Shown: in pieces, positions 3,221-34,450 of the stretch
Layout of the letters: every line of letters starts with the position of its first letter
How positions within the stretch are numbered: position 1 is the first letter of the stretch
Assembly (NCBI GenBank): GCA_026397755.1
Contig: JAPLUF010000283.1
Span: 1 to 45,168 of the forward strand
Length of the DNA stretch: 45,168 nucleotides
Source of the DNA: Verrucomicrobiota bacterium
Lineage (GTDB): Bacteria > Verrucomicrobiota > Verrucomicrobiia > Limisphaerales > UBA9464
Direction: 5' to 3'
Notes under the pieces: generated by a model
The model's input: only the letters and a program-made list of their open reading frames with translations
The model's database searches: none
What the model was told of the DNA's origin: nothing
Translations under genes and position numbers: made by a program

Positions 3221-3241
3221 GCCGGTGTCCGGCTTCCTTCC

Positions 3242-5062
3242 ATGAACATCGTGCCGGAGACCGCTCCCTTCAGCCGAGAGCAGCGCGCATGGCTCAATGG
3301 GTTCCTGGCCGCATCGCTCTTTGATCGGTTGGGGGCCTTGCCGTCAAAGGTCGCACCCTCCGGGTCGCAGCCGCCCGCTCCGCCCCGCTGTTTGTGGGTT
3401 GGATACGGGTCCCAGTCGGGTTCGGCGTCGGGGTTGGCCAGAAAACTGGCTAAGTCGGCCGAATCCAAGGGGTTCGTGGTCACCGTCCGTGAACTCAACC
3501 AGATCACCCAAGAGGAACTGGCCGCACAGGAGCGTCTGCTGGTGGTGACATCCACCTGGGGCGATGGTGAACCCCCGGACAATGCCAGCGCGTTCTGGTC
3601 CCGGCTTTCGGAGGAGTCGGCTCCTCGGCTCGAATCTCTTCGGTATTCGGTGCTCGGTCTCGGGGATCGGAACTACGCCGATTTCTGCGGTGCCGCTCGC
3701 CGCATCGATGAGCGTCTGGCGGCACTGGGAGCCGGGTGTCTGGTGGCACGTGCCGAATGCGATGGGGGGGATCAGACACCCTTCGCGGCCTGGGCCGATG
3801 CTGTGTGGCTATCACTCGCCACGAAATCAGCGGCATCCGCAACGGAGGTCTCAGTCATCCCGGTCCCTGGGCCGGTCACCGCTTGGGTCACGGCTCAAGA
3901 ATCGGAGGTGGCACCCCCAGCCTGCCTCTGGACCCGTCGCAATCCCTACCCAGCCCGGTTGCGGATGGCCCGTCGCCTGAATGGCGCTGGCTCGGCCAAG
4001 GACACTCGGCACATCGAACTCGTGCTGGGGGATTCATCCCTCGCCTACGAGGTGGGAGATGCCTTGGGGGTGCAGCCCTCGAACGATCCCGCGTTGGTGG
4101 CCGAGGTGGTGGACGCGCTCGGTTTGGGTTCGATGGGTTCTGAGTCGCTCGGCACGCCGGTCTTGGAGGATTCCGTGAGTCTCCAAGAGGCCCTGATGAC
4201 CCGTTGGATCCTGACCCAGCCCTCGCCAGCCCTTCTGAAACGGTTGGCGGAGCGAGCCCCAGGCTCGCTCCTAGCCGGTTTGTTGGAATCTTCGCGGCGG
4301 TCAGATCTCGAGTCCTGGTTAATGGGGCGCGATGTGGTCGATGCCCTAAAGGCGGCCCCGGGCGCCCGTATCGAGGTCGCGGAGTTGGGTTCATTAATGC
4401 GTCCGCTTTCGCCGCGATTGTATTCCATCGCCTCCTCGCTGAAGGCCTATCCCGGTGAGGTGCACCTCACGGTGGGAACGGTCCGTTACGAGGCCCACGG
4501 TCGATCGCGCCACGGAGTCGCCTCGTGCTGGTTGGCTGACCGTGTGGTTCCTGGGGAAACCCCGGTGCCGGTGTTTGTTCAGGTCAGCCGCCATTTCCGA
4601 CCGCCGACCGATTCGTCACGACCCATAATCATGGTGGGTCCGGGCACGGGGATTGCCCCGTTCCGCGCCTTCCTGCAGGAGCGCCGTGCCATCGGAGCTC
4701 CCGGAAAGAATTGGCTCTTCTTTGGCGATCAGCGCCATTCCTCCGACTACTTGTATGCATCGGAATTAGATCCCCTGCATCGCGATGGATTCCTCACCCG
4801 GTTGGACCTGGCATTCAGCCGCGATCAGGAGTCCAAAGTGTATGTCCAGGACCGCATGCGGGAGCAATCCCAGGCTCTGTGGCAGTGGCTAGAGGAGGGG
4901 GCTCATTTCTACGTGTGTGGCGATGCCCGACGCATGGCCAAGGATGTCGAGGAGGCCCTCCGGACAGTGATCCAGACCGCGGGCGGCCGCAGTGAGGATC
5001 AGGCCTTGGAATACCTCGAAACACTCCAGTCTGAAGGACGCTACCAGAAAGATGTGTATTGA
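3242..5062 (+). CDS. NADPH-dependent diflavin reductase (sulfite reductase flavoprotein-like)
   Basis: This 606-aa cytoplasmic diflavin enzyme is close to CysJ in length. An N-terminal flavodoxin domain (about residues 48-190) shows the FMN loops YGSQSGSASGLA, TSTWGDGEPPDN and LGLGDRNYADFC. A FAD domain follows (about 215-440) with the flavin motif RLYSIASS and a GVASCWL segment. The NADPH domain (about 455-606) has GPGTGIAPFRAFLQER, the FFGDQRHSSDYLY segment, the YVCGDARRMAKDV motif and the CysJ-like ending GRYQKDVY. It would pass electrons from NADPH through FAD and FMN to a partner. No sulfite reductase hemoprotein of CysI type is next to it; the partners in reach are NirA (overlapping by 11 bp) and NasA. 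It is therefore probably the electron donor of assimilatory nitrate and/or nitrite reduction. Use in sulfite reduction cannot be excluded. Confidence 0.88.
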   Translation: MNIVPETAPFSREQRAWLNGFLAASLFDRLGALPSKVAPSGSQPPAPPRCLWVGYGSQSGSASGLARKLAKSAESKGFVVTVRELNQITQEELAAQERLLVVTSTWGDGEPPDNASAFWSRLSEESAPRLESLRYSVLGLGDRNYADFCGAARRIDERLAALGAGCLVARAECDGGDQTPFAAWADAVWLSLATKSAASATEVSVIPVPGPVTAWVTAQESEVAPPACLWTRRNPYPARLRMARRLNGAGSAKDTRHIELVLGDSSLAYEVGDALGVQPSNDPALVAEVVDALGLGSMGSESLGTPVLEDSVSLQEALMTRWILTQPSPALLKRLAERAPGSLLAGLLESSRRSDLESWLMGRDVVDALKAAPGARIEVAELGSLMRPLSPRLYSIASSLKAYPGEVHLTVGTVRYEAHGRSRHGVASCWLADRVVPGETPVPVFVQVSRHFRPPTDSSRPIIMVGPGTGIAPFRAFLQERRAIGAPGKNWLFFGDQRHSSDYLYASELDPLHRDGFLTRLDLAFSRDQESKVYVQDRMREQSQALWQWLEEGAHFYVCGDARRMAKDVEEALRTVIQTAGGRSEDQALEYLETLQSEGRYQKDVY

Positions 5063-6896
5063 AGCGGACGACACCACCACTCCCATGCCCCTGCCTTTCC
5101 AGCAAATCTCCGGACAGCCAATCAACGCCGAACAAACCGCTTACCTCGAGGGTCTCTTCGCTGGACTCCACAATCGAGGCCTCGGTTTCGGGGACCTGGC
5201 CCCGACCGCGCTCCCGACCCTAGCGTCGCCCGACCTCTCCGACCTGACCGACCAAGAGCGCATTAAACGCGAACTCCATCCGCTGGATGCCTACTCGTTG
5301 CTCCTGCAGCATGCGGCCTCCGATCAGGCACCCGATCCGGACAACGCGTTCCGCTTCAAATGGCAGGGGCTCTTCTATATGAGCCCCATGAAGGAGGGCT
5401 ACATGGCGCGCCTGCGGATTCCCGGCGGCCAGTTGACTTCAGCCCAGTTGCGGGAGATCGCCGCCATCACCGAGGGACTGACCACGGGCTACCTCCAAAT
5501 CACCACTCGGTCCAACTTGCAGGTCCGGCATATTCGTTTTCAGGACGCGCCGGAATTCCTGCGGCGCATCCAGGCCATCGGGCTTCACACCCGTGGGGCC
5601 GGTGCCGACAATATTCGCAACCTCACCTGCGATCCGACCAGCGGCATCGATCCGATGGAGCGAGTGGAAACACTGCCGCTGACGTTGCAATTGGGTCAGG
5701 TGATTTTGAACCACCGGGAGTTCTATGACCTGCCACGGAAGTTTAACATCGCCCTCCATGGGGGAGGGTCGATACCCATCGTTGAAGACACCAACGACAT
5801 TGGTTGGAAGGCTGTCCGGGTTTGTTCTCTCGCTGAGTTCAAAACCCAGGGTCCCTGTGATTTCCGGTCTGGAGATCTACTGACGGATTCCGTGCCCCCG
5901 GGGCTGTATTTCCGCTGCCTGCTGGGTGGGGCCACCGGTCACAAATCCTTTGCGCGCGATCTGGGTGTTTTGGTGCCGCCTGCAGAGGTGGTCTCGATGA
6001 GTGCGGCGATGCTTCGGGTTTATCTCGCCCATGGAAACCGGACCGACCGCAAGCGGGCCCGACTCAAGCACTTGCTAGAGAATTGGACGTTGGACCGTTT
6101 CCGAACTGAGACGGAAACGCTTTTGGGTCGGTCCTTGATGGGCATACCTGAGGGCTCCGAGACGGCGGTGCCCTCTAGTGGGCCGGTCACCAGCGGCATG
6201 CATTCGCACCTAGGGGTGCACCCGCAACGGCAAGCCGGCCTTCACTGGATTGGCGTCGCAGTTCCAGTGGGGCAGATCACCTCAAAGCAACTGCGACGCC
6301 TGGCCGAACTGGCCGAACTGTACGGGAGCGGCGAGGTACGATTGACCGTTTGGCAGAACCTGATTTTACCGAACATCTCCGAGGCCTATGTCGAGACAGT
6401 CAAGAAGGCGCTGGTCAAGGCTGGGCTCGATTGGAAGTCGAGCGCCCTCCGGGGGGGATTCATTGCCTGCACCGGCAACCGTCATTGCCGCTTCGCCGCC
6501 TCGGACACCAAGCGTCATGCGTTGGAGTTAATCCAGTGGCTCGATTCCCGGGTCACCCTGGATCAGCCGGTGAACATCCATCTGACCGGCTGTCCGAATT
6601 CGTGTGCTCAACATTACATGGGGGACATCGGGCTCTTGGGGACTCAGGTCAAGCGGGGTGGCTCATCCCAGGAGGCCTATCACGTTTTTGTCGGGGGCGG
6701 ATTTGGTGGGCGGCAGGCGATTGGGCGAGCGGTCTTTCAAGGTGTGATCCTGGAGGAACTGGGGCCTCTCTTGGAGCGCATGCTCAAGGTCTATCTCCAG
6801 ATCCGGCATTCCGATGAGAACTTCCAGGCCTTCACGGCCCGTCATGACCTGGGGCGACTCCAGGAACTGTTCTCGGAGAACTTAATTCTCTCCTGA
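5052..6896 (+). CDS. nirA: Assimilatory nitrite reductase, siroheme/[4Fe-4S] (NirA type)
   Basis: This 614-aa protein would reduce nitrite to ammonium with six electrons. The N-terminal half has the nitrite/sulfite reductase ferredoxin-like repeat (FKWQGLFYMSPMKEGYMARL, then RIPGGQLTSAQL and TTRSNLQVRHI), and the second repeat begins near GVHPQRQAGLHW. The cluster cysteines fit the family exactly: C473 and C479 (CX5C, in ACTGNRHC) and C514 and C518 (CX3C, in TGCPNSC), which bind [4Fe-4S] bridged to siroheme. I chose the ATG at 5052, overlapping the diflavin gene by 11 bp, with an AAGGA stretch about 15 nt upstream. The more upstream in-frame ATG at 4992 lies deep inside that gene, and the ATG at 5085 is an alternative. 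Sulfite reductase is possible, but the nitrate operon favours nitrite. Confidence 0.9.
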   Translation: MCIEADDTTTPMPLPFQQISGQPINAEQTAYLEGLFAGLHNRGLGFGDLAPTALPTLASPDLSDLTDQERIKRELHPLDAYSLLLQHAASDQAPDPDNAFRFKWQGLFYMSPMKEGYMARLRIPGGQLTSAQLREIAAITEGLTTGYLQITTRSNLQVRHIRFQDAPEFLRRIQAIGLHTRGAGADNIRNLTCDPTSGIDPMERVETLPLTLQLGQVILNHREFYDLPRKFNIALHGGGSIPIVEDTNDIGWKAVRVCSLAEFKTQGPCDFRSGDLLTDSVPPGLYFRCLLGGATGHKSFARDLGVLVPPAEVVSMSAAMLRVYLAHGNRTDRKRARLKHLLENWTLDRFRTETETLLGRSLMGIPEGSETAVPSSGPVTSGMHSHLGVHPQRQAGLHWIGVAVPVGQITSKQLRRLAELAELYGSGEVRLTVWQNLILPNISEAYVETVKKALVKAGLDWKSSALRGGFIACTGNRHCRFAASDTKRHALELIQWLDSRVTLDQPVNIHLTGCPNSCAQHYMGDIGLLGTQVKRGGSSQEAYHVFVGGGFGGRQAIGRAVFQGVILEELGPLLERMLKVYLQIRHSDENFQAFTARHDLGRLQELFSENLILS

Positions 6897-6913
6897 GCCT
6901 GCATTTCCCCCCT

Positions 6914-8383
6914 GTGAAAACTATCTCTGTATCGCCCATCGGCACTCAGGATGAGGAACGTCTCGAGACCCTGGTGGATGCCTTTATCGACGAGCAGCGC
7001 CAACTGAGTGCCGTGGAGCGTTTCAGTCAACGCCATGCCGATGTCAGCCACCCGTTGTTGGAGACGCACTACCGGGCCTTGATGCCAGCCTCGCCCCCAG
7101 GTCCGGGTGAGCAGTACGCCTTCGAGGTAGACCTCGACCAGTGCTCCTCCTGCAAGGCTTGTGTCGTGGCTTGCCATTCTCTCAACGGCCTCGATTCCGG
7201 TGAGTCGTGGCGCGAGATTCGGCTGCTAGTGGGTTCGCGCCCTAGAATCTCCTTGGGCGCGCGCGCAGAATCAGTGGCCTTGGCGGTCACCTCCGCCTGT
7301 CACCATTGCGTGGATCCGGGTTGCCTCAAGGGGTGCCCGGTCCTGGCCTATGACAAGGATCCAATCACCGGCATCGTTCGCCATCTCGATGACCAATGCA
7401 TCGGGTGCAGTTACTGCATCTTCACCTGTCCGTACGAGGTGCCCAAGTTCTCGAAGTCCCGGGGCATTGTCCGCAAATGCGACCTGTGCCATGGGCGACT
7501 CGAGGTGGGTGAGGCGCCGGCCTGCGTGCAGGCTTGTCCCAATGAAGCGATCCGAATCACTCGAGTCTCGGTGACTGCGACGACGGAGCGATGCCGTAGC
7601 GAGGCGTCCGGCAGTGACCACAGCGAGGCTGGCTGTGCCTTGCCCGGAATGCCCTCGGCGGCCATCACCGTCCCGACCACGGTGTATCGTTCGCGGCACA
7701 CACTGGCGGGTTTGGAGTCCCGGCCCGTCTCGGGCTCTGAGAGACCTCGGGAGGCTCACTGGCCACTCATCGCGATGCTGGTGTTGACCCAATGGGGCGG
7801 GGGAACACTCGCCGCGGTCGCCCTGAGGGTGGGGCTGGGTGATGGATTCCTGACAGTGCGGGATGCCGTGGTGGCCGCGCTGGGATGCCTGGGTGTTCAG
7901 GGAGGGTTGATCGCGTCGGTGTTCCACTTGGGGCGCCCGCTCCAAGCCTGGCGGATTGGCTTGGGTTGGCGGACCAGTTGGTTGAGTCGCGAGGCCATCG
8001 CTCTCGGGATCTTCTCTGCGGTCTCCATAATCTTCACGGGGTTGATCGCCCTGGATGTCTGGCTTTCGGCATGGCCTGTTCCGAGCCGTGTTCTCGCTGG
8101 AACGGCCGCAGCACTGCTTTTGCTGCTGCTCCTGGCGACGTTGGCGCAGGTTCAGGTGTATGCCATCACCGGTCGGGTTCCGTGGCGTTTGAGGCGTACC
8201 GTACCTCGGTTCGCTGGCACTGTCCTGATGGCGGTTGGCGTGGGTTGTGGTTTTTTGGTAGGCACAAATTGGGCTCCGCTTCTGGGCCTTCTTTTGATGG
8301 GTTTTTCGGTGGCGGAGCGCTGGCAATTCTTCACGGGAAGATCGGTGGTGGACGCCGTGTCCCGAGATGGAGGCAGGCAATGA
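6914..8383 (+). CDS. Fused DmsB-like [4Fe-4S] protein and DmsC-like membrane anchor
   Basis: This 489-aa protein joins two modules. Residues about 70-220 hold four cysteine groups of the DmsB/NrfC type (CSSCKACVVAC, CHHCVDPGCLKGC, CIGCSYCIFTC and CDLC...CVQAC), enough for four [4Fe-4S] clusters. After a Ser/Thr-rich linker, residues about 280-489 contain five or six hydrophobic helices, with the DmsC-like phrases FHLGRPLQAW and SWLSREA. No twin-arginine signal is visible, so the clusters should face the cytoplasm. It would carry electrons between the quinone pool and a molybdoenzyme. The following gene, a Tat-less nitrate reductase, overlaps it by 4 nt (ATGA), making that enzyme the obvious partner. 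The GTG start at 6914 is the only reasonable start before the first cluster, but it has no strong ribosome binding site. Confidence 0.87.
   Translation: MKTISVSPIGTQDEERLETLVDAFIDEQRQLSAVERFSQRHADVSHPLLETHYRALMPASPPGPGEQYAFEVDLDQCSSCKACVVACHSLNGLDSGESWREIRLLVGSRPRISLGARAESVALAVTSACHHCVDPGCLKGCPVLAYDKDPITGIVRHLDDQCIGCSYCIFTCPYEVPKFSKSRGIVRKCDLCHGRLEVGEAPACVQACPNEAIRITRVSVTATTERCRSEASGSDHSEAGCALPGMPSAAITVPTTVYRSRHTLAGLESRPVSGSERPREAHWPLIAMLVLTQWGGGTLAAVALRVGLGDGFLTVRDAVVAALGCLGVQGGLIASVFHLGRPLQAWRIGLGWRTSWLSREAIALGIFSAVSIIFTGLIALDVWLSAWPVPSRVLAGTAAALLLLLLLATLAQVQVYAITGRVPWRLRRTVPRFAGTVLMAVGVGCGFLVGTNWAPLLGLLLMGFSVAERWQFFTGRSVVDAVSRDGGRQ
8369..8373 (+). promoter_or_regulatory. Ribosome binding site fixing the nitrate reductase start
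   Basis: GGAGG lies 6 nt before the ATG at 8380. It supports that start over the 495-nt upstream extension of the same open frame, which would run through the membrane-anchor gene. Confidence 0.7.
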
Positions 8384-10641
8384 CATTTCCCGAGATACCA
8401 TGGAGGTCCTGGAACGGGCCGCTCACCGCCGACCTGGCTCGGGAGTCCGGAGGGTTTGGATTAGGCCAGGTGCCCGCCCGCCTGAAGCCCGATGCGACCA
8501 CGGGTCTGATTTGCGGTTTTTGCGCCACTGGTTGCGGATTGACGGCCCATTTGGTGGATGGGGAGGCGGTGAACCTGACTCCGGATCCCGCGTTTCCAGT
8601 TAATTTGGGCATGGCCTGCCCCAAGGGTTGGGAAGCGTTGGTTCCTCTAGATGCACCCGATCGGGCCACGACCCCTTGGTTGCGAAATCCTCTCACGGGC
8701 GTCATGGAACCGGTGCCGTGGACCCGTGCGTTGGAGGTGTTCGTTTCGCGAATGAAATCGGTGCAGCAGAAGCATGGGCCCCATTCCATCGCGTTCCTCA
8801 GCACCGGCCAGATTTGCACCGAGGAGATGGCCCTGCTGGGGGCTCTCTTCAAATTCGGAATGGGTGGCTTGCATTGCGATTCCAATACGCGTCAGTGCAT
8901 GGCCACGGCGCATGCCGCCTACAAGCAGAGCTTGGGCTTCGATGCCCCGCCCTATACGTATGCCGATTTTGAAGAGTCGGACTGCCTGGTGTTTGTGGGG
9001 TCGAATCCCGCGGTAGCCCACCCCATTCTGTGGCAACGGGTCCTGCGTAACCGGAGGCAGCCGGAGATCCTTGTGCTCGATCCCCGTCGGACGGAGACAG
9101 CGATGGCCGCCACCTTGCATGTGCCGCTGGCTCCGAAGTCTGACCTTGTTCTCCTCTACGGATTGGCCGCGGCCTTAATCCATAGAGGTGCGGTCGATCG
9201 CGCGTTCATCGAGGCCCACACACGGGGTTTCGCGGAGTTCGAAGTCTTTGTGCAGGAGTTTACCCCGGAGCGCGTGTGCGCCGAGGCAAAGATATCCGGC
9301 GAGCTCTTTAAGACACTCGTGGAGCGCATCGCGACCCGGGCCCGAGTCTCCTACTGGTGGACCATGGGCGTGAACCAGGGCCATGAGGCGACCCGCACCG
9401 CGCAGGCGATCATCAATTTGGCGTTGATGACCGGGCAGATCGGTAAACCCGGGACGGGTGCCAATTCCATCACCGGCCAGTGCAATGCCATGGGGTCGAG
9501 GATCTTCTCCAATGTGACCAATCTTTTCGGGGGTCGCGACTTCGGGAATCCGGCCGATCGGGCTGAGGTGGAGTCCTTGTTGCGGCTGCCTGCCGGCATT
9601 GTGCCTACGGAGAATTCCTGGGCCTATGACCAGATCGTGGACGGCATTGAGTCGGGTGCGATCCGCGGCCTTTGGGTCATTGCTACCAACTCATCGCACT
9701 CTTGGATCCAACAGAGCCGGTTCAATGACCTTCTGGGGCGTCTGGAGTTTCTGGTGGTCCAGGATCTCTACACCACGACCGAGACCGCGCAGCGTGCGGA
9801 TCTGCTGTTGCCGGCGGCCGGTTGGGCCGAGAAGGAGGGAACCTTTATCAACAGCGAACGCCGTCTGGGGTTAGTGAAGCGCATTCGTCGGGCCCCCGGA
9901 CAGGCTCTTTCCGATTTCCACATCTTCCGCTTGGTGGCGGAGGCTTGGGGATGTTCGGATCTTTTGGAGGCCTGGCGCACGCCTGAAGCGGTCTTCGAGT
10001 TGTTGAAGCGCTTGAGCCGCGGCCGGCCGTGCGACATCACGGGGATCGACGGATATCGGGCTATTGATGCACTGGGCGGGATTCAATGGCCGTTTTCGCA
10101 AGCGATGAGGGAGGGTGTCTTGGATTCTGCCTCCGGCGCTTTGCTGGAAACGTTACCCGAGACTCGGGTGGCTGAAATTCGGGAGCGGCGACTCTTCGCC
10201 GATGGTCGTTTCTATACCGCTGATGGGAGGGCTGTTTTCCACTGCTCGACCCCGCAGCCAGTTCCTGAGCCCACTGATGGTCACTACCCGTGGGTCTTGC
10301 TGACCGGTCGCGGAACGAGTTCCCAGTGGCACACCAATACGCGAACTTCCAAATCAGCGGTGCTGCGTCCGCTCTATCCGGAAAACTGTTATGTGGAGAT
10401 CCACCCGGAGGACGCCGCCCGAATCGGATTGCTCCCGGGGGGGCGGGTTCTTGTGCGTTCGCGCCGTGCGGAGTTGGTGGCCGACGCCTGCATCACACCC
10501 ATCGTCCAGCCAGGTCAGGTGTTCATTCCCATGCACTACCGTGAGGTGAACCCCCTCATAAAGTCCGTGGTGGATCCCCTTTCGCGGCAACCGAGCTACA
10601 AGTTCTGTGCTGTCACCCTCGAGGCGCTGCCGCCCTCTTGA
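8380..10641 (+). CDS. nasA: Assimilatory nitrate reductase catalytic subunit (molybdopterin)
   Basis: This 753-aa molybdopterin oxidoreductase is of the NasA/NarB kind and reduces nitrate to nitrite in the cytoplasm. The N-terminal [4Fe-4S] ligands are C45, C48, C52 and C80 (CGFCATGC ... ACPKG). The probable molybdenum ligand is C173 (DSNTRQCMATAHAAY), which fits nitrate reductases; formate dehydrogenases normally use selenocysteine or Cys in a different context. Further cofactor motifs are GSNPAVAHP, LDPRRTET, WTMGVNQGHEATR and the C-terminal molybdopterin dinucleotide domain (LLTGRGTSSQWHTNTRT). There is no Tat signal and no C-terminal [2Fe-2S] or flavin domain, so electrons must come from separate proteins. 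The start overlaps the stop of the DmsBC-like gene (ATGA) and has a GGAGG site. It is the last gene of the operon. Confidence 0.92.
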   Translation: MTFPEIPWRSWNGPLTADLARESGGFGLGQVPARLKPDATTGLICGFCATGCGLTAHLVDGEAVNLTPDPAFPVNLGMACPKGWEALVPLDAPDRATTPWLRNPLTGVMEPVPWTRALEVFVSRMKSVQQKHGPHSIAFLSTGQICTEEMALLGALFKFGMGGLHCDSNTRQCMATAHAAYKQSLGFDAPPYTYADFEESDCLVFVGSNPAVAHPILWQRVLRNRRQPEILVLDPRRTETAMAATLHVPLAPKSDLVLLYGLAAALIHRGAVDRAFIEAHTRGFAEFEVFVQEFTPERVCAEAKISGELFKTLVERIATRARVSYWWTMGVNQGHEATRTAQAIINLALMTGQIGKPGTGANSITGQCNAMGSRIFSNVTNLFGGRDFGNPADRAEVESLLRLPAGIVPTENSWAYDQIVDGIESGAIRGLWVIATNSSHSWIQQSRFNDLLGRLEFLVVQDLYTTTETAQRADLLLPAAGWAEKEGTFINSERRLGLVKRIRRAPGQALSDFHIFRLVAEAWGCSDLLEAWRTPEAVFELLKRLSRGRPCDITGIDGYRAIDALGGIQWPFSQAMREGVLDSASGALLETLPETRVAEIRERRLFADGRFYTADGRAVFHCSTPQPVPEPTDGHYPWVLLTGRGTSSQWHTNTRTSKSAVLRPLYPENCYVEIHPEDAARIGLLPGGRVLVRSRRAELVADACITPIVQPGQVFIPMHYREVNPLIKSVVDPLSRQPSYKFCAVTLEALPPS

Positions 10642-10687
10642 GTCGAATGGGCCGCGGGCGTGTTCCCGCAGGGGGCTGCCTATTGTT

Positions 10688-10703
10688 ACCTTTTGGCAAA
10701 GGT
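10688..10703 (+). promoter_or_regulatory. Inverted repeat upstream of promoter (candidate operator), copy 1
   Basis: ACCTTT-TGGC-AAAGGT is a perfect 6-bp inverted repeat with a 4-nt spacer, 18 nt before the -35 candidate. It is conserved at 19822-19837. No T-run follows, so it looks like a protein binding site and not a terminator. Confidence 0.45.
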
Positions 10704-10721
10704 CTCAAGCAGTATTGGGGG

Positions 10722-10749
10722 TTGACGCGGTTGGAATTCCAGATTCAAT
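10722..10749 (+). promoter_or_regulatory. Candidate sigma-70-type promoter with internal palindrome, copy 1
   Basis: TTGACG (10722-10727) and TTCAAT (10744-10749) are separated by 16 bp. The spacer contains the perfect palindrome TGGAATTCCA (10732-10741), which could be an operator. The leader to the ATG at 10910 would be about 150 nt long. The same arrangement is found at 19856-19883. Confidence 0.5.
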
Positions 10750-10784
10750 CGCCCTCGAACACCCACCGTTTAGTTAACCGTTTT

Positions 10785-10814
10785 AGCGCTGCGAAGCGCT
10801 GACCTCTTGGAGGT
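10785..10814 (+). other. Two consecutive small stem-loops in the 5' leader
   Basis: AGCGCT-GCGA-AGCGCT (10785-10800) can form a 6-bp stem closed by a GNRA tetraloop. It is followed directly by ACCTC-TTG-GAGGT (10802-10814). Both would lie in the untranslated leader of the gene at 10910. The other copy's leader has a different hairpin (AACGA-GCT-TCGTT, 19928-19940) at a similar place. A role in RNA stability or translation is possible but unproven. The rest of 10815-10909 is AT-richer and has no Shine-Dalgarno sequence before the ATG. Confidence 0.4.
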
Positions 10815-10909
10815 TGGTTTCGCACATAGAATTTTTGTAACCAGGTAACTTGCCTTGTTGCATTTGTGTCGATTAAGCGGCGGTTCCATAACAAAAAAAC
10901 TCCTACCCA

Positions 10910-13900
10910 ATGAGAAACACACTGAATCGGGCCTTTTTAGTTGGCCTAGTATCGTTTCTGCCAACAGCAGCGTTCTTCACCGCAAGCCAAGCACAAGCGC
11001 AGACCAAATTGGTCGCGTGGTGGGACTTCGAAAAGGTTGAATCCGACGGAGTCTCAGTCAAATCAGTCGTCGGCGGTTATGCCGGACAAATCAACGAAGC
11101 TGCTGTTTTGACGGCTGCCGGCGGCGGACGCCCCGGTGGCGGCAAGGGCTTCGACGTGTCGATCGCCAACAAGGGCTACCTGCTGCACGAGTCTTCCGGG
11201 ACCGACAATCCGCTGAATGTCGCCGCGGCCGACGACAACATCACCATCACCCTGTGGCAGAAGAACTACTCGAATCCGAACTCCAGCACGTTCTGGGCCG
11301 TTGCTGATGACGCGGGTCGCAGCACCCAGGCGCACTTGCCTTGGTCCGACGGCACCATTTATTGGGACTCCGGTGGATGCTGCGGTGGCGATACTCGCCT
11401 CAACCAGAACCCAGGTGCGGCTCACGATTGGAATTCCTGGCACTTGTATTCCTTCGTCAAGCGCGGAACCACCAAGGAAATTTGGATCGATGGCACTCTG
11501 CTCAAGACCGCCGACGGCTTCAAGGCGCACAGCGTCTTGAACACCAAGCTCTTCATCGGTGGTGAGAACGGCGGCAATCCGCCTGACGCCGTCGTCGACG
11601 ACTTCGTCATCTGGCAGGGCGCCCTCAGCAAGGAGCAAATTGCCAAGCTCGCCGCCGGCGCCAAGCCGACCGATCTGGTGATCGATACTGACAAGGACGG
11701 CATCTCTGACGACTGGGAAAAGCAGTACGGCTTCAACCCGAACGACCCTGCCGACGCCAAGAGCGACTTCGACAAGGACGGGTTTGACAACCTGGCTGAG
11801 TACAATGCCGGCACCGATCCGAAGGATCTGACCCCGCCGACTTTGGTGGGCGCTGCTGCCTCCGCCTCGGGCACCACCCTGACGATCACCTTCAGCGAGA
11901 AGGTGGATCCGGTGACCGCAGGCGCCATGGCCAACTACAGCATCACCCCAGCTCTGGCGGTGACCGCTGTGGCCGTTAAGGGCAACACGGTGACCCTCAC
12001 CACAGCCAAACAGACCCTCGACGGCACCGAGTACACCGTCTCGGTCAGCAACGTTCAGGATCTCTCCAAAAAGACGATCGTGGCCGCCTCCAAGGTGAGC
12101 GCTTACGCCTTCGTTACCCTGCGCAACGGCATCGCTAAGTTCTCGGCTTGGTTGGGCATCAGCGGCGGGCTCCAGAACCTGTTGGATGATCCCCGTTACC
12201 AGGCTGGCACACCGGATGTGGTTGGAGCCATGTTTGGTATGAATAGCCGCGATGTGTTTCCTACCGATGCGAATGACAACTATGGTGCGACGATGGAGGC
12301 CATCCTGACCCCGGTTGAGAGCGGCAGCTACCGGTTCTTCATCTACAGCGACGATGCATCTCAGCTCTTCCTGAGCACCGACGACAAGGTAGCCAACTTG
12401 GCGCAGATCGCCGAAGAAACCGGATGCTGCAACTTCTTCACTGAGCCCGAAAGCCCCCGGACCTCTGATCCTATCGCGTTGACCGCGGGCAAGAAGTACT
12501 TCATCCGCCTGATCTATAAAGAGGGCGGTGGTGGTGACTACGGCCAAGTCGCTTGGCGTAAGGAAGGCGATGCAACCCCGGCGTCGGCTCTCAAGCCCAT
12601 CGACGGCAAGTTCCTGAGCGCCGAGGCCGTGGCCTCGCCCGCCGGCTTCATTAAGAGCGTCGCTCCGACGCCCAAAACGGTTCAGGCCGGCAACAACATG
12701 GAGATCGTCCACGTGGACGGCCGCACGGTGCAGACCGCGGCGACCACCAGCCTTGAGGTCGATGGAGCCAAGGTGAATGCCACCATCGAGAAGTCGGGCA
12801 TCTTCCTGACCGTGAAGTACACCGCCAGCTTCGCGCCGAACACCAAGCACACCGCGAAGCTCAACTACCTCGACGTCGCCGGCAAGCCGACCTCTTACGA
12901 GTGGTCGTTCAGCACCAACCCGCTCAATGACGCGAACGCGCTGTTCATCGAGGCCGAAGACTTTGACTTCGACGGCGGTCAGACGATCAGCGATCAAAAG
13001 ATTGGTATGAACGGCAAGTATCCGGGTGACGCCTTCAAAGACAAGTCGGGCATCCCGGGTGTCGACTTCAACAACCCCGGTGGTAACGCCGGCCAGAACT
13101 ACCGGCCTGACACCGGCGTGGCGGCGGGCAAGAGCCCGAACGGCGGCGGTCGCAACCGCGGTTTGTTCGACGTCGATGTGAACTACACCGTCGGCTGGAA
13201 CGACGCGGGTGACTGGCAGAACTACACCCGCACCTTCCCGACCCCGGCCAAGAAGTATTCGGTGTACGGCTTCGCCTCCTCGGGTGGCGATCCGATCCAG
13301 TTCACCCTAGATCAGGTGACCGCCGGTGTGGGCACCGAGGCCCAGACCCTGAAGCGGCTGGCCGAGCTGAAGCCCGGCCGTGCGACCGCGGGTTGGGACA
13401 ATCTGGAGCTCTTCGCGTTCACCGATCCGACCACCAAGGCTCCGTCCGTGCTGGAACTGGGTGGCAAGATGACCCTGCGTCTGACCTTGCCGGCCGGCGC
13501 TGGTGACATGGACTTCATCGCCTTCATCCCGGCGCCCCTCCCGAACAATGTGCTCAGCAAGGACGACACCATCGTTCCGAGCTCCGCCAATCATCCAGCC
13601 GGCGAGGCTTCTCCGAAGGTTATCGACGGTCTCAGCTCCACGAAGTACCTGAACTTCGACAAGCTGAACACCGGCTTCACGGTGACCCCGAAGGCGGGTG
13701 CCTCGGTCATCTCCGCGATCACCATCACGACCGCGAATGACGCTCCTGAGCGTGATCCGGCCACTTGGCAGATCCTCGGATCCAACAACGGCACCGACTT
13801 CGAGGCCATCGCCTCGGGATCGCTCGCTGCCAACTCGACGCGGTTCAAAGTCACCACGCTGGAGTTCTCCAACACCAAGTCCTACACCAGCTACAAGGTG

Positions 13901-14182
13901 GTCTTCCCGACCGTCGTGGACGCTGTCAAGGCCAACTCGATGCAAGTCGCCGAAATCGCCCTGCTGGGCACGGCTTCCGGTGGCAGTGGTGGTGGTGGTG
14001 ATGCGCGCTTCACTGGCATCAAGGCCAATGCCGACGGTACGGTCACCATCACCTGGACGGGTGCTGGCAAGCTGCAGTCCGCTGTCTCGCTCAGCGGTCC
14101 TTGGACCGATGTGGCGGGTGCCGCCAGCCCGCTGACGGTGCCGGCCAATCAGGCCGCCCAGTTCGCGCGGATCGTTAAATAA
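10910..14182 (+). CDS. Large secreted multidomain lectin-like protein (LamG, PA14, CBM6-like, discoidin-like)
   Basis: This is a 1090-aa exported protein with a signal peptide (MRNTLNRAFLVGLVSFLPTA, then SQAQAQ). Domains in order: a LamG/concanavalin-like jelly roll (about 40-250, with LPWSDGTIYWD and GCCGGDTR); a Ca-binding thrombospondin-3-like stretch DTDKDGISDDWE ... DFDKDGFDNLAEY (about 258-305); an Ig-like domain (about 308-395); a PA14 domain (about 404-565, YRFFIYSDDASQLFLS); a second Ig-like domain; a CBM6-like domain (about 677-873, GWNDAGDWQNYTR); a discoidin-like domain (about 878-1023); and a short C-terminal module ending FARIVK. No catalytic domain is visible, so binding of glycans or surface attachment is the likely role. 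Codon use is strongly biased to C/G-ending codons, as in highly expressed genes. A strong terminator follows, so it is probably monocistronic. Confidence 0.85.
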   Translation: MRNTLNRAFLVGLVSFLPTAAFFTASQAQAQTKLVAWWDFEKVESDGVSVKSVVGGYAGQINEAAVLTAAGGGRPGGGKGFDVSIANKGYLLHESSGTDNPLNVAAADDNITITLWQKNYSNPNSSTFWAVADDAGRSTQAHLPWSDGTIYWDSGGCCGGDTRLNQNPGAAHDWNSWHLYSFVKRGTTKEIWIDGTLLKTADGFKAHSVLNTKLFIGGENGGNPPDAVVDDFVIWQGALSKEQIAKLAAGAKPTDLVIDTDKDGISDDWEKQYGFNPNDPADAKSDFDKDGFDNLAEYNAGTDPKDLTPPTLVGAAASASGTTLTITFSEKVDPVTAGAMANYSITPALAVTAVAVKGNTVTLTTAKQTLDGTEYTVSVSNVQDLSKKTIVAASKVSAYAFVTLRNGIAKFSAWLGISGGLQNLLDDPRYQAGTPDVVGAMFGMNSRDVFPTDANDNYGATMEAILTPVESGSYRFFIYSDDASQLFLSTDDKVANLAQIAEETGCCNFFTEPESPRTSDPIALTAGKKYFIRLIYKEGGGGDYGQVAWRKEGDATPASALKPIDGKFLSAEAVASPAGFIKSVAPTPKTVQAGNNMEIVHVDGRTVQTAATTSLEVDGAKVNATIEKSGIFLTVKYTASFAPNTKHTAKLNYLDVAGKPTSYEWSFSTNPLNDANALFIEAEDFDFDGGQTISDQKIGMNGKYPGDAFKDKSGIPGVDFNNPGGNAGQNYRPDTGVAAGKSPNGGGRNRGLFDVDVNYTVGWNDAGDWQNYTRTFPTPAKKYSVYGFASSGGDPIQFTLDQVTAGVGTEAQTLKRLAELKPGRATAGWDNLELFAFTDPTTKAPSVLELGGKMTLRLTLPAGAGDMDFIAFIPAPLPNNVLSKDDTIVPSSANHPAGEASPKVIDGLSSTKYLNFDKLNTGFTVTPKAGASVISAITITTANDAPERDPATWQILGSNNGTDFEAIASGSLAANSTRFKVTTLEFSNTKSYTSYKVVFPTVVDAVKANSMQVAEIALLGTASGGSGGGGDARFTGIKANADGTVTITWTGAGKLQSAVSLSGPWTDVAGAASPLTVPANQAAQFARIVK

Positions 14183-14238: not shown

Positions 14239-14298
14239 CAATTCGGGTCGGTGGTTGTCCAAGGAGCCGAAACGGATTCGGTGAAGAGAAACCCAGCC

Positions 14299-15921
14299 AT
14301 GGGATCACTGTTTTCGCATGGGATTTGGAAGAGCTTGAGACTTCCTGTCTCTCTCGTCGTCCTGCTCCTGGTGGCGGGCCTCAGTCATGCCGCGGACCAA
14401 CCGCAGGGGGCTGCAACAGCGCCGACGGCACCGCTTGTTGGGTCTGAATCTTCGCCCGAATTTTTGGTTCAGGGTCGTGAATTGGCCCGATTGCATTGTC
14501 AGGGATGCCACCTTCAGCCCGAGCCTGATCAACTCGACAAGGTCACTTGGTATGAACAGACCTTGCCTCGCATGTCCATCCGGCTGGGATTCATGCCCCA
14601 GTCCATCGATCGGCATCCTGAAGCAGATCTTCTGAAGGCTTCCGGCCGTTTTGCCACAACACCCTACATCCCTGTTTCCGACTGGAAGGCGATCACCAAT
14701 TACTACGTCTCCAGCGCGCCGGAGAAGCCGTTGCCGCAGGCGCGATCCCAGCCCATTCGGATGGGGTTAAAGTCCTTTCGGGTCGAGCCGGCCGCCGCCG
14801 CTGAGTCGGGTGGGCCGGAGACGACCCTCGTCCGGATCGATTCCCAGAATCGGCGTTTGTTTGTCGGCGACGCCCGGCGCAAGACCTTGGAATTGCGGGG
14901 TCCGGACGGATCTCTGCGCCAAACACAAACCATCGGAAATGTGCCGGTGGGTCTTTCCTTCGGATCGAGCATGGGCCTTCTCGCTTCGATCGGTAGTTTT
15001 ATGCCGTCCGACCGGCCTTTGGCGGATGTCCGGCGTTGGGACGGTACTTTGGGTTCACTAGCCACCGCCGCGCCGATCTTGACCAACCTTCCGCGGGTGA
15101 CCCAAGCGATCCTCGAAGACCTCAATGGAGACGGTCGGGAAGATTTGATCGTCTCTGCCTTTGGCAACGTGATGGGACGCTTCTCGTGGCATGAGAACCT
15201 GGGAGGCGGGAAATACACCGAACATGTGCTACTGGATCGTCCCGGAGCCATATGCGCCCAGGTTCTTGATTTTAACCAAGATGGTCGCCCGGATATCGGT
15301 GTGCTGGTGGCCCAGGAAACCGAATCCTTTTTCATTTTTCTTAACCGCGGAGCGGGGAAGTTCTCCATGCAGGTGGGATTTCAGCGATCTCCGCTCTTCG
15401 GTCATACCTCCTTTGATGTCGCCGACTTGGATGGCGATGGGCGTCCGGACCTAGTGGTCACCAATGGCGACAACGGGGAATATGCTTCGCCCATCAAACG
15501 CTATCACGGTATCCGGGTTTACATGGGTCGGCCGGATCTCACCTTCCGCGAGAGTTTTTTCTATCCGCTCAACGGGGCGTTCAAGGCTTTCGTCCGAGAT
15601 TTCGATCAAGATGGTCACCCTGAAATTGCCGCCATCTCGTATTTCCCCGACTACTCCAAGTCGCCGGAAGAAGGGTTCGTTTGCTTGGAGAACCGCGGCA
15701 ATTTCCGGTTCGCAGCTACCACCTTCAAGGAAAGCCTGGCGGGTCGATGGCTCACCCTCGACTGCGGCGACTTGGATGGCGACGGCGATGAAGACTTAGT
15801 CCTCGGATCCCACATTCATGGGCCAAGTCCGGTACCTGACAACCTCAAGGCCAATTGGGAGCGCGACCGCATCCCCTTCATGATCTTGCGCAACACCACC
15901 GTGGATCGAAAGGGGCCATGA
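14299..15921 (+). CDS. Secreted c-type heme-binding FG-GAP repeat protein
   Basis: From the ATG at 14299 the protein has 540 aa and a typical signal peptide (SLRLPVSLVVLLLVAGLSHA, then AD). In-frame GTG starts at 14251 and 14281 are alternatives. A single heme-c motif C67-Q-G-C70-H71 lies in a short cytochrome-like domain (about 50-135; LGFMP could supply the Met ligand). The rest is a beta-propeller of FG-GAP/VCBS repeats with Ca-binding loops, for example DLNGDGREDL, DFNQDGRPDI, DLDGDGRPDL, DFDQDGHPEI and DLDGDGDEDL. The stop overlaps the next start (ATGA), so the two products are made together. The function is unknown; the heme suggests redox or sensing at the cell surface. The substrate or partner cannot be read from the sequence. 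Confidence 0.8.
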   Translation: MGSLFSHGIWKSLRLPVSLVVLLLVAGLSHAADQPQGAATAPTAPLVGSESSPEFLVQGRELARLHCQGCHLQPEPDQLDKVTWYEQTLPRMSIRLGFMPQSIDRHPEADLLKASGRFATTPYIPVSDWKAITNYYVSSAPEKPLPQARSQPIRMGLKSFRVEPAAAAESGGPETTLVRIDSQNRRLFVGDARRKTLELRGPDGSLRQTQTIGNVPVGLSFGSSMGLLASIGSFMPSDRPLADVRRWDGTLGSLATAAPILTNLPRVTQAILEDLNGDGREDLIVSAFGNVMGRFSWHENLGGGKYTEHVLLDRPGAICAQVLDFNQDGRPDIGVLVAQETESFFIFLNRGAGKFSMQVGFQRSPLFGHTSFDVADLDGDGRPDLVVTNGDNGEYASPIKRYHGIRVYMGRPDLTFRESFFYPLNGAFKAFVRDFDQDGHPEIAAISYFPDYSKSPEEGFVCLENRGNFRFAATTFKESLAGRWLTLDCGDLDGDGDEDLVLGSHIHGPSPVPDNLKANWERDRIPFMILRNTTVDRKGP

Positions 15922-18900
15922 GGCGTACTTTGGCCACCGGTGCGTATGCCCTATTACTGGCAGCACCCCGGCTACTGTTTCTCGGGTTAGCGGACGTGCT
16001 CATCATCCCCTTGGTTTTTGCGGAAAAAGCGTCGGTTTCATCGAGTGCGGAAGCCGGCGAGCCGGGCCCAGGTTTTCTGAGATGGCGTCTACCAGTGCGA
16101 ACTCCTTCGGGTGGTGGAGTGGGTGCAGGTTTTCGCGCCGTAGATTCGAGTCGTTCGGGCATTCAGTTCACCAACCGCCTCGAGGAAGCTTCGGCGGCCC
16201 GGAACCGCATCCTCGAAAATGGCTCGGGCTTGGCGTTGGGCGATGTCAATGGCGACGGACTGCCGGACCTCTACTTGTGCAGTTTGGAGGGCACGAATGC
16301 GTTGTACCTCAACCGCGGTGGATGGCGCTTTGAGGAAGCGGCAAAAATAGCCGGAGTGGATTGCTCAGGTCAGCGATCCTCTGGGTGCCTTTTGGTGGAT
16401 GTGGATGGAGACCGCGATTTGGACTTGCTGGTGAATGCCTTGGGCGGCGGCACGCGGTTGTTTCTCAACGACGCGTTGGGCCGATTCACGGAGTCGACCA
16501 ATAGCGGTTTTGCCCGGCGTCTGGGGGCGACTTCCATGGCCGCGGCCGACATCACCGGGGACGGTCTCCCGGAAGTTTATGTGACCAATTACCGCACCAC
16601 GACTTATCGGGATGGATTCGATGGGGCCAAGCCGTCCCTGCGGGTCGTGGACGGAAAACCGGTGGCGGTTCCGTCTTCGCGGTTTGGAGCCACGCGGGTC
16701 CGTGGAGGTGGCGTCATGGTCAATGAGCGTGGGGAAGTGGATGTCCTTTATCGCAACAAGGGAGGAGGCGTCTTCGGCCCGATTTCTTGGACGGCGGGAG
16801 CGTTTCTGGATGCCCGCGGCCAAGCTCTGACGGAGGCTCCGCATGATTGGGGTCTCAGTGTGGCCTTCCGTGATCTCGATGGGGATTTGCAACCGGAGAT
16901 CTATGTTTGCAATGACTTCCTGCTCTCGCGGGATGCCTTCTGGCGCAACACCGGCAGCAAGGGTTTTCAGGCCGTCATGCCCGAGGCCATCCGGCAAATT
17001 TCCATGTCCTCCATGGGGGTGGATTTCGCCGACATCAACCGGGATGGCATCGACGACTTCGTGGTGGTGGACATGCTCTCGGCCGATCCGGCGGCCCGCC
17101 AGCGTCAGCGTGCCAATCACCTCACCGCTTTCGACTGGCCGACGCATGATCCCGCGTTTCGACCGGAGATGTCGCGCAACACCCTCTTCTTGGGCCGTGG
17201 CGATGGCACCTACGCGGAGATTGCGCAAATGGCGGGAATCAGCGCCACGGATTGGTCTTGGTGCCCGATCTTCGTGGACGTGGATTTAGATGGGTTCGAG
17301 GACCTCATCGTGGGTACAGGCAATGACCATGACGTCCTAGATGCCGACCTCCTCCGGGCGGTGCGCGGAGCCGACGGCCGGGACGCCTCGGGCGATGCCG
17401 TGGAAAACCTGCGTCGTTTCCCCCGTCTGGAAACACCCATGGCCGTGTTCCGCAATCGCGGTGATTTGACCTTCCAGAACATGGCGGGGGCCTGGGGATT
17501 GTCCCTACCGGCTATTCGGCACGGCATGGCTTTGGCCGATCTCGATCAGGATGGCGATTTCGATTTGGTGGTGAACCGGCTGCAAGGGCCGGCCGAGATC
17601 CATGAAAACATCAGCACTGCGCCTCGGATTGCAGTGCGGTTGCGTGGCCTTGCACCGAACACCGGGGGCATCGGCGCGCGAATCCGTTTGTTGGGCGGGC
17701 GAGTGCCACTGCAAAGCCAGGAGATGATGAGTGGCGGTCGCTATCTTTCGTGTGACCAAGGCCTGCGGGTTTTTGCAGCGGCCCCCACCGGATCCATGAC
17801 CCTCGAAGTGCACTGGCGCTCAGGAAGATTATCCCGCATCAAAGAGGTTTCAGCCAATTACCTCTATGAAGTCGATGAAGCGGCGGCGAGTGCGTCGGTC
17901 CCGACTCCCCAGCCGGAATCCATCCAAAGCCTCTTCACCGATGCCAGCGCCGTGTTGGCTCATGTCCATGAGGATCCTCCCTTCGACGATTTCCAGCTCC
18001 AGCCGCTCTTGTCGCGCAAGTTGAGCGAGTTGGGTCCGGCATTGGCCTGGTTCGATCTCAATGGCGACGGAGCTGAAGACTTGTTGGTGGGAAGTGGAGC
18101 CGGGGGAATGCCGGCCCTCTTCTACGGGGACGGTCGGGGTGGATTCACCCGGCAGGCGGATTCCGTTTTGGCATCGCCGTCGACTTTGGACACGACCGGC
18201 ATTCTCGGGCTCCACCTGGGTGGTGGTCGGCGGGAGGTGGTGGTCGGAATTGCTTCTCAGGAGGATCCGGGATCGCAGCGGCCCCGTGCCCGCGTGCGGG
18301 TCATCGGCGCCCCAGATTCGGAACCGCTCCTGCCAGAAGCGGTGGCATCATCAGGGCCCGTTGTCGCCGGTGCGGTGGGAGGAGTTGGGAGCCTCGTTCT
18401 CTTTGTCGGTGGACGGTCCATTCCGGGGCGTTATCCCGAGGCGGCGGACTCGGCGCTTTGGGTCCGTGAAGGTGACCGATGGAAAGCCCATCCGGCTGCC
18501 AACGAGGTGTTCCGTTCGGCGGGCTTGGTCAGCGGGGCCGTGTTCACGGATCTCGATGGGGATGGGAACTCGGAGTTGGTGCTGGCCTGCGATTGGGGCA
18601 GTCCAAAAGTGTACGCCTGGGTTCAAGGAGTTCCGGTGGATCGGACCCGCGAGTGGGGACTCGAGGATTTGACCGGTTGGTGGAATTCGGTTCAATCCGC
18701 TGACTGCGATGGGGATGGGCGCATGGATCTGGTGCTCGGCAATCTCGGGCGCAATTCCCGATGGCAAGACCACTTGGCCCGGCCCGCTCGGGTGTATTAT
18801 GGAGAGGCCGACGGCGACGGCCGGCTGGAACTGCTCGAGGCCTTTTGGCATGCAGGAAGTCAGAAATGGCTGCCATGGCGAGATGCCGAGACCGTGGGCC

Positions 18901-19682
18901 GATCGTTTCCGGGGCTCTCGGAGCGTTTGCCTACGTTTCGTGCCTATGGTCAGGCTTCCATCGATGACATTCTCGGCTCCCGGGCCGCAGATTTTCGCCG
19001 TCGCGAAGCAGCCACTGGCGACTCGATGGTGCTGTTGAACCGAGGAGGTCGCTTTGAGCGTCGGCCTCTGCCCATCGAAGCCCAGATGGCCCCGGTGTTC
19101 GGGGTCGCGGTGGCCGATTTCGATGGCGATGGTCGCGAAGATCTGGCCCTGGCCCAGAATTTCTTTGGCGTGGAGCCAGAGACCTCCCGGTTCGATGCGG
19201 GTCGAGGGTTGATCCTGACGGGCCATGGGGATGGGTCCTTCCGCCCCCTCGATGGGACTCGCTCGGGCGTGATCGTTTGGGGAGAACAACGAGCCGTCGC
19301 CGCCGCGGACTATGACGGCGATGGGCGGACCGATTTGGCTCTCAGTCAAAATCGGGGTACGACGCGCCTGTTTCGGAACACCGGAGGTCGGCCCGGATTG
19401 AAGGTGCGGTTGGAAGGTGGAGCGGACAATCCATCAGCCATCGGTGCCCAAGTGCGATGGGGTCGGGAAGGTTGTTTCGGCCCGGCCCGGGAAATCCATG
19501 CGGGTGGCGGCTATGGGTCGCAGGATTCGTCCGCACTGGTGCTGGCATCGACCGAAGCCCCAGCGATTCTGAAGGTCCTTTGGCCGGGAGGGGTTTCAAC
19601 CGAGAGTGCCGTGCCTCAGAATGCTCGTGAGATTCGGGTGCGGCGCGAGGGCACCTCGGCAGTGCTCACTGTAGTGCGCTGA
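15918..19682 (+). CDS. Giant FG-GAP/ASPIC-UnbV repeat protein (two tandem halves)
   Basis: This is a 1254-aa exported protein. The ATG at 15918 overlaps the previous stop by 4 nt; the open frame extends further upstream but only inside that gene. A hydrophobic N-terminus (about residues 9-35) is a signal peptide or anchor. The first half has at least seven FG-GAP loops (DVNGDGLPDLY, DVDGDRDLDLL, DINRDGIDDFV, DVDLDGFEDLI, DLDQDGDFDLV and others) and an ASPIC/UnbV domain (about 573-650, NTGGIGARIRLLGG). The second half repeats the plan: DLNGDGAEDLL, DLDGDGNSELV, DFDGDGREDLA, DYDGDGRTDLA, then another ASPIC-like end (SAIGAQVRWG). Similar long VCBS/ASPIC proteins are common near polysaccharide-use genes in Bacteroidetes. 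The role here is unknown, probably a binding protein at the cell surface working with the heme protein before it. Confidence 0.82.
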   Translation: MRRTLATGAYALLLAAPRLLFLGLADVLIIPLVFAEKASVSSSAEAGEPGPGFLRWRLPVRTPSGGGVGAGFRAVDSSRSGIQFTNRLEEASAARNRILENGSGLALGDVNGDGLPDLYLCSLEGTNALYLNRGGWRFEEAAKIAGVDCSGQRSSGCLLVDVDGDRDLDLLVNALGGGTRLFLNDALGRFTESTNSGFARRLGATSMAAADITGDGLPEVYVTNYRTTTYRDGFDGAKPSLRVVDGKPVAVPSSRFGATRVRGGGVMVNERGEVDVLYRNKGGGVFGPISWTAGAFLDARGQALTEAPHDWGLSVAFRDLDGDLQPEIYVCNDFLLSRDAFWRNTGSKGFQAVMPEAIRQISMSSMGVDFADINRDGIDDFVVVDMLSADPAARQRQRANHLTAFDWPTHDPAFRPEMSRNTLFLGRGDGTYAEIAQMAGISATDWSWCPIFVDVDLDGFEDLIVGTGNDHDVLDADLLRAVRGADGRDASGDAVENLRRFPRLETPMAVFRNRGDLTFQNMAGAWGLSLPAIRHGMALADLDQDGDFDLVVNRLQGPAEIHENISTAPRIAVRLRGLAPNTGGIGARIRLLGGRVPLQSQEMMSGGRYLSCDQGLRVFAAAPTGSMTLEVHWRSGRLSRIKEVSANYLYEVDEAAASASVPTPQPESIQSLFTDASAVLAHVHEDPPFDDFQLQPLLSRKLSELGPALAWFDLNGDGAEDLLVGSGAGGMPALFYGDGRGGFTRQADSVLASPSTLDTTGILGLHLGGGRREVVVGIASQEDPGSQRPRARVRVIGAPDSEPLLPEAVASSGPVVAGAVGGVGSLVLFVGGRSIPGRYPEAADSALWVREGDRWKAHPAANEVFRSAGLVSGAVFTDLDGDGNSELVLACDWGSPKVYAWVQGVPVDRTREWGLEDLTGWWNSVQSADCDGDGRMDLVLGNLGRNSRWQDHLARPARVYYGEADGDGRLELLEAFWHAGSQKWLPWRDAETVGRSFPGLSERLPTFRAYGQASIDDILGSRAADFRRREAATGDSMVLLNRGGRFERRPLPIEAQMAPVFGVAVADFDGDGREDLALAQNFFGVEPETSRFDAGRGLILTGHGDGSFRPLDGTRSGVIVWGEQRAVAAADYDGDGRTDLALSQNRGTTRLFRNTGGRPGLKVRLEGGADNPSAIGAQVRWGREGCFGPAREIHAGGGYGSQDSSALVLASTEAPAILKVLWPGGVSTESAVPQNAREIRVRREGTSAVLTVVR

Positions 19683-19821
19683 CAAGAAGACTCATGCTGT
19701 TAAAGGAGTCTCGAACCCAGCCGGGCGGGAACTCTTCAGCGCAGTCGGAGTCGCAGGCGGAAAGATCTCTGAGCGTCGGAGCTGCCTGTGAAGGTCCAGC
19801 GCAGGGGGGCTGCCTGTTGTT

Positions 19822-19837
19822 ACCTTTTGGCAAAGGT
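19822..19837 (+). promoter_or_regulatory. Inverted repeat upstream of promoter (candidate operator), copy 2
   Basis: ACCTTT-TGGC-AAAGGT is identical to 10688-10703 and has the same distance to the -35 candidate. Confidence 0.45.
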
Positions 19838-19855
19838 CTCAAGCAGTATTGGGGG

Positions 19856-19883
19856 TTGACGCGGTTGGAATTCCAGATTCAAT
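19856..19883 (+). promoter_or_regulatory. Candidate sigma-70-type promoter with internal palindrome, copy 2
   Basis: TTGACG (19856-19861) and TTCAAT (19878-19883) have a 16-bp spacer holding TGGAATTCCA (19866-19875), as in copy 1. It would drive the gene at 20044 with a leader of about 150 nt. Confidence 0.5.
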
Positions 19884-20043
19884 CGGTTTCGAATTCCCCT
19901 TTGCTGGATAGACCCTTTTGCCGACGTAACGAGCTTCGTTCTTGGAGCACAGTGGCGCGCGCAAAATTAGCAACAATGGCACTTTATTGTTACTTTTAGG
20001 CCGATTCAGTCGGGGGTACCGCAACATAATCACCTCCGACCCA

Positions 20044-34356: not shown

Positions 34357-34450
34357 GGATGATGCGACGAACTAAACCAATGCCTCGAAAGTTCACCCGG
34401 GTCAATGCGGTCGAGAACTGCGGTCACCGACGGACCGTGTCTGCCGACGC

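Follow-up and report, generated by a model that had tools for sequence, protein, structure and literature searches.

A 69-bp repeat before two paralogous secreted-protein genes of a Verrucomicrobiota bacterium: probable trace of two merged versions of one locus

In a stretch of 45,168 nucleotides from the genome of a Verrucomicrobiota bacterium (contig JAPLUF010000283.1, positions 1 to 45,168; hereafter the window), two genes for secreted proteins are preceded by the same short piece of DNA, which raises the question of whether this piece is a regulatory unit kept intact by selection or a trace of recombination. Direct alignment confirmed the identity claimed in a preliminary description: positions 10683–10751 and 19817–19885 share 69 identical bases 9.1 kb apart, bounded by an A/G mismatch on the left and CC/GG on the right, and similarity around the first copy spans approximately 10670 to 10761 once single mismatches are allowed. 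Identity over 69 bp at such a distance within 45 kb is not possible by chance. The near-identity of the first 20 codons of the two genes (57/60 nt, 19/20 amino acids) and the divergence of the leaders between cassette and start codon (61 differences over 155 aligned sites) also held. The earlier term "otherwise diverged giant genes" was only partly apt: "giant" is generous for proteins of 1090 (gene A) and 1206 (gene B) amino acids, and the two are indeed diverged, but as distant paralogues (41% amino acid identity over 706 residues, with LamG, PA14, and Big_5 domains) rather than as unrelated genes. LamG and PA14 are among the carbohydrate-binding modules listed for freshwater Verrucomicrobia MAGs (PMC5615132).

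From the comparisons presented here, two alternative versions of a chromosomal locus have probably merged, which would explain why the cassette, the 5′ region of gene B, occurs twice. The features of the locus are as follows, w1 and w2 denoting the cassette copies before genes A and B, respectively.

7885–10641, plus strand: molybdopterin oxidoreductase, nitrate-reductase-like, left anchor (Pfam Molybdopterin 6.6e-50, Molydop_binding, Fe4S4).
10595–10761, plus strand: island of ~167 bp resembling G017 and G001 (sliding identity, alignment).
10683–10704, plus strand: left half of cassette 1, carrying ACCTTTTGGCAAAGGT, the inverted repeat; assigned to the 3′ flank of the oxidoreductase gene.
10705–10751, plus strand: right half of cassette 1, conserved core TCAAGCAGTATTGGGnGTTGACGnGGTTGGAATTCCnGnTTnAAT; putative promoter with a weak −10; present in w1, w2, G017, G010, and G014.
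10752–10909, plus strand: leader of gene A; 5′ half near-random relative to B leaders, 3′ half (from ~10855) homologous.
10910–14182, plus strand: gene A, a B-type start (codons 1–20) fused to an A-type LamG/Big_5/PA14 secreted protein.
14251–15921, plus strand: FG1, FG-GAP repeat protein of the A-type cluster (97% amino acid identity to G001 C105, 78% to G011).
15855–19682, plus strand: FG2, FG-GAP/ASPIC_UnbV protein of the A-type cluster (94% to G001 C105, 76% to G011).
19683–19804, no strand assigned: right flank of the A cluster, with a decayed CotH-type 3′ end on the minus strand (87% to G001 past FG2; 81% to 28928–28996).
19817–19885, plus strand: cassette 2, identical to 10683–10751.
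19886–20043, plus strand: leader of gene B, 84–95% identical to orthologues.
20044–23664, plus strand: gene B, encoding a secreted protein with LamG and PA14 domains; the cassette is native to it (orthologues, Pfam).
23937–28755, minus strand: FG3, FG4, and TPR genes of the B-type cluster (96–99% amino acid identity to G017; Pfam).
28928–33496, minus strand: CotH/LTD/LamG gene of full length, missing from this site in G017 and present as remnants in G001.
33583–36443, minus strand: DUF3050 and beta-lactamase-fold genes, right anchor (Pfam, gene order in relatives).

The preliminary description had proposed that the cassette defines a regulon of co-expressed surface proteins, to be checked by a genome-wide count of its copies and of the genes downstream. 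The window's own genome (a MAG of 3.79 Mb in 410 contigs, 80.6% complete with 4.69% contamination) contained two copies, both in this locus, and allowing two mismatches in a 20-bp core revealed no additional copy in that MAG. At 80.6% completeness an extra copy may be missing from it; the congeners G017, G010, and G014, which are 94–97% complete, have one true copy each with up to two mismatches allowed. Among 59 genomes (own included), cassette orthologues were those of G017 (95% identity), G010 (91%), and G014 (right half only, 89%), and G001 had the left half alone. Within 50 genomes of the family, neither the cassette nor the B 5′ region was found beyond the window MAG (two copies) and these relatives (one each). 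An exact-pattern scan of ~85,000 species genomes returned three contigs, all from Verrucomicrobia MAGs and all with the pattern before B orthologues, and viral contigs gave no match. Weak matches in G000 (C308) and in the same-order genomes G046, G050, and G058 (19–32 bp, E 0.05–0.2) were judged to be due to chance. In the relatives the orthologous cassettes precede B orthologues only, and in G017 and G010 they come immediately behind the nitrate-reductase-like gene. Copies at random positions, the outcome that had been named as contrary to the proposal, did not occur, the copies being orthologues plus one local duplicate; nor did any genome carry the cassette before several unlinked genes. 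With two copies in the MAG and one per relative, and with only B orthologues plus gene A downstream, a regulon defined by the cassette is not supported.

Identity of w1 and w2 could also be maintained by purifying selection if A and B must be co-expressed, and the core of ~45 bp is indeed recognizable in five of five copies, with little variation in its distance from an ATG, and with a TTGACG hexamer and a palindrome inside it. Orthologous cassettes, however, accept 2–6 changes per 47 bp, the same rate as the leader: compared with window B, differences in cassette and leader numbered 2/47 and 7/158 in G017, 4/47 and 16/158 in G010, and 6/47 and 24/158 in G014. Cassette and leader of B orthologues thus diverge equally (Fisher p about 0.8–1), and the cassette does not behave as a slower-evolving element. 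Between w1 and w2, by contrast, the cassette showed 0/69 differences vs. 61/155 in the leader (p 1.8e-12), and at four cassette positions w1 and w2 have a common base that is found in none of the three relatives. In the cassette, 4 sites unite w1 and w2 against G017 and 0 favor the alternative; in the leader 2 do so, and at 56 w2 sides with G017 instead of w1 (Fisher p 2.7e-5), a tract signal in conflict with its flanks, as looked for in gene conversion. The differing histories of cassette and leader indicate recombination or gene conversion, and the leader-like divergence of orthologous cassettes together with the bases private to w1 and w2 argues for such an exchange rather than for selection on a unit. 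Of "selection or gene conversion", as the matter had been put earlier, conversion or recombination is hence supported by the four private bases and selection on one unit is not. Since, moreover, no additional copies exist in the MAG or relatives and the inverted-repeat half is separable, selection for co-expression is a very unlikely explanation.

The leaders themselves are of uneven relatedness: the 3′ halves of the w1 and w2 leaders are clearly homologous (z 11.6 vs. shuffles), and the 5′ halves are barely above chance (z 2.3). When a donor for the w1 leader was sought in the 50 family genomes, only B leaders matched, and the w1 leader was not close to any sequence found; its donor may be unsampled, or it might have diverged in place. 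Upstream, the island at 10595–10761 comprises the 3′ end (~15 codons) and 3′ flank of the oxidoreductase gene together with cassette 1, and in a sliding comparison it was ~95% identical to G017, with 71–79% on its left and 57–61% on its right. G010 was 97–100% identical over 9942–10241 and 72–81% thereafter, and the surroundings are generally mosaic.

The cassette, moreover, falls into two pieces. G014 is without the left (inverted-repeat) half and retains TCAAGCAGTATTGGGnGTTGACGnGGTTGGAATTCCnGnTTnAAT; in G001 the left ~36 bp follow the nitrate-reductase-like gene, after which the sequence changes and the right half is absent. From these two complementary cases, the inverted repeat is best regarded as part of the 3′ flank of the nitrate-reductase-like gene, and only the right half (10705–10751, ~45 bp) appears to travel with gene B. 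A single, indivisible regulatory unit under selection does not agree with this separation.

Sequence motifs in the cassette had been listed as parts of a regulatory unit. The inverted repeat, palindrome, and hexamers are all present, but their weight is small. The right half is a plausible promoter, with TTGACG, a 16-bp spacer, and TTnAAT in five of five copies; a plain sigma-70 consensus scan does not accept TTGACG/TTCAAT because the second hexamer is without A at position 2. Within the window the palindrome TGGAATTCCA occurs at 10732 and 19866 only, yet it is shortened to TGGAATTCCG in G010 and G014 and is one of 68 perfect 10-bp palindromes in the window, which leaves its reading as an operator unsupported. 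Similarly, ACCTTT-N4-AAAGGT is one of 24 inverted repeats of the form 6-N4-6 in the window, and it was rejected as a terminator, since its stem (−3.9 kcal/mol) lacks a T-run and the w1 region holds nothing that looks like a terminator. An Rfam search of the window gave no match at gathering thresholds. The covariation term of the consensus RNA structure for cassette and leader, calculated from five sequences only, was unfavorable (+3.21 kcal/mol), and folding alone was somewhat good for the w1 leader (z −3.0) and not for the w2 leader (z −0.7), indicating that no RNA element is conserved here.

Relatives also carry gene A, and their copies bear on the origin of its start. The A orthologues in G009, G011, and G016 are 76–85% identical to window A at the amino acid level and are preceded by unrelated DNA and unrelated signal peptides, e.g., MKSQRVAFSALGAAAFF in G009; in G011 and G009 the ATG has a TTGACA hexamer 66 bp ahead of it. 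At the DNA level, window A resembles these orthologues from 10967 onward and B up to 10970, so that window A consists of a B-type promoter region, leader, and 20 codons on an A-type body. Judged from these alignments, gene A is a chimera: the same gene has non-homologous upstream regions in three relatives, and its own cassette, leader, and start are native to the B orthologues. As its leader and start are not identical to those of B, the donor may have been an unsampled B-type copy, or the fusion may predate homogenization of the cassette. That A and B are paralogues with 41% amino acid identity would also fit a tandem duplication of B in place, in which the first copy diverged faster while function preserved cassette and start. 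The A body is 83–85% identical, however, to A orthologues with other signal peptides and promoters, some of them beside the same nitrate-reductase-like gene, which means that A is not a recent copy of B. In-place duplication is therefore refuted for the gene body and survives for the 5′ region only; as a whole it is highly improbable, and a chimeric origin of A is preferred.

Gene order in the relatives places these observations in a wider frame. The left anchor, the nitrate-reductase-like oxidoreductase gene, follows Fer4/DmsC and nitrite-reductase (NIR_SIR) genes, with a flavodoxin/FAD reductase also among its neighbors. In G017 it is followed by the cassette, B, FG3, FG4, TPR, DUF3050, and beta-lactamase. 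In G009 and G016, a first contig has the nitrate-reductase-like gene, an unrelated large gene (DUF7133-cytochrome in G009), and A, inside which the contig ends, and a second contig has A, FG1, FG2, (in G009) CotH, DUF3050, and beta-lactamase. The order in G011 is DUF7133, A, FG1, FG2, and beta-lactamase, and in G001 FG1 and FG2 (amino acid identity to the window 97% and 94%) come before remnants of the two CotH ends and DUF3050. Contigs of G009, G016, G001, and G010 end inside the locus, and some of these arrangements were joined from separate contigs. In the window, 19683–19804 after FG2 matches G001, CotH remnant included, and leads directly into cassette 2 and from there into the B cluster, so that the right end of an A cluster continues into a B cluster and both lie in one interval. 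Thus, by gene order, relatives carry either the A or the B cluster between the same anchors and the window carries both in tandem, an arrangement known from one MAG contig.

Short-read assemblers can mis-join at repeats near typical k-mer sizes, and a 69-bp repeat is of that length; the linkage of A and B could accordingly be an assembly chimera, in which an A-cluster strain and a B-cluster strain were joined at the repeat, the tandem being unreal and the chimeric A real. The fragmentation and contamination of the MAG (410 contigs, 4.69%) and the occurrence of mostly one cluster or the other in relatives are in line with this. However, none of the B copies found matches the B-like leader and start of gene A, and to the left of w2 A-cluster sequence leads into the cassette through a junction of its own. 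The fusion point in A shares only ~10 bases, and the 5′ swap of A cannot be such a mis-join. Overall, a mis-joined tandem is unlikely. Direct repeats flanking a 9.1-kb block, and the different clusters found at the site in different species, would also be expected if the cassette were the end of a mobile element (MITE-like or an integration site) that imported the A cluster. Against this, the MAG has no additional copies, no integrase or transposase family was present among the scanned cluster proteins, the right half goes with gene B in genomes without the A cluster there, and the repeat is absent at other insertions in these genomes. We consider a mobile element to have almost no chance of being correct.

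Merging of two locus versions, our preferred reading, would have involved three changes, the order and mechanism of which (crossover, conversion, or illegitimate joining) we infer rather than observe. The B cluster with its cassette would have been joined behind the A cluster in the window's lineage. In gene A, the original promoter and most of the signal-peptide sequence would have given way to a cassette, a leader, and 20 initial codons of B type. The 69 bp would then have been homogenized between the copies by gene conversion, or would mark the site of a crossover; conversion, as opposed to crossover inside the cassette, is the presumed route. The core of ~45 bp may now serve as the promoter of A as well as of B. 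On a bolder interpretation, the interval from the nitrate-reductase-like gene to beta-lactamase would be a dedicated exchange site for swapping and stacking secreted-protein clusters, with cassette and signal-peptide start as short homologous handles that put incoming genes under the resident promoter; this we regard as quite unlikely.

Gene A would, by its sequence-readable features, be a case of the already known promoter capture or switched intergenic region. Promoter capture proceeds via tandem duplication, deletion, or other rearrangement (PMC11111574, which in its treatment of the subject cites Matus-Garcia et al. 2012 and others), and as here a coding region gains a neighbor's promoter by rearrangement with little homology at the join; unlike in that account, the captured DNA extends over the leader and most of the signal-peptide codons, and the case is known from sequence. 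Inclusion of the signal-peptide start would be its less usual trait. In horizontal regulatory transfer, or switching of intergenic regions (PMC5890482), an upstream region is likewise replaced by a non-homologous one whose history conflicts with that of the gene, but here a paralogue of the same locus supplied the replacement, and one genome carries the two versions in tandem. Gene conversion between tandem paralogues also leaves a short identical tract with genome-private bases and diverged flanks; here, in contrast, the tract is intergenic, at a putative promoter, and one genome cannot separate conversion from crossover. The locus offers a well-resolved natural exchange of promoter region, leader, and signal-peptide start with a paralogue, both parental arrangements being visible in sister genomes. 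It also carries a warning: a "promoter" perfectly conserved within one genome can be a conversion tract instead of a regulatory signal, and comparison of orthologues tells the two apart.

Several smaller observations were made at the locus. In G001 the right half of the cassette is replaced by a sequence (L014 5758–5878) that recurs at 87% in G014 (L013 10414–10532), ~0.8 kb upstream of gene B, a further rearrangement. Positions 22050–22750 of gene B are 50–70% identical to G017 between flanks of ~97%, resembling a domain-sized allele swap. FG3 and FG4 (23937–27382) are adjacent FG-GAP/ASPIC paralogues, 58–59% identical to each other at the amino acid level and 96–99% identical to G017 and G014. 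A repeated stretch (34421–34644; 34421–34494 vs. 34569–34644, 75%) lies in the intergenic space separating the DUF3050 and beta-lactamase genes, with related copies upstream of B in G014 (L013 10127–10353) and beside CotH in G002 (L077 35–245, ~88%); these may form a small family of intergenic repeats. The CotH gene of G009 (L071 = G009 C59, about 2681–7257) is matched in two overlapping pieces, one with two in-frame TGA codons. Taken with what is left of the two CotH ends in G001, this suggests that CotH has decayed repeatedly at the locus.
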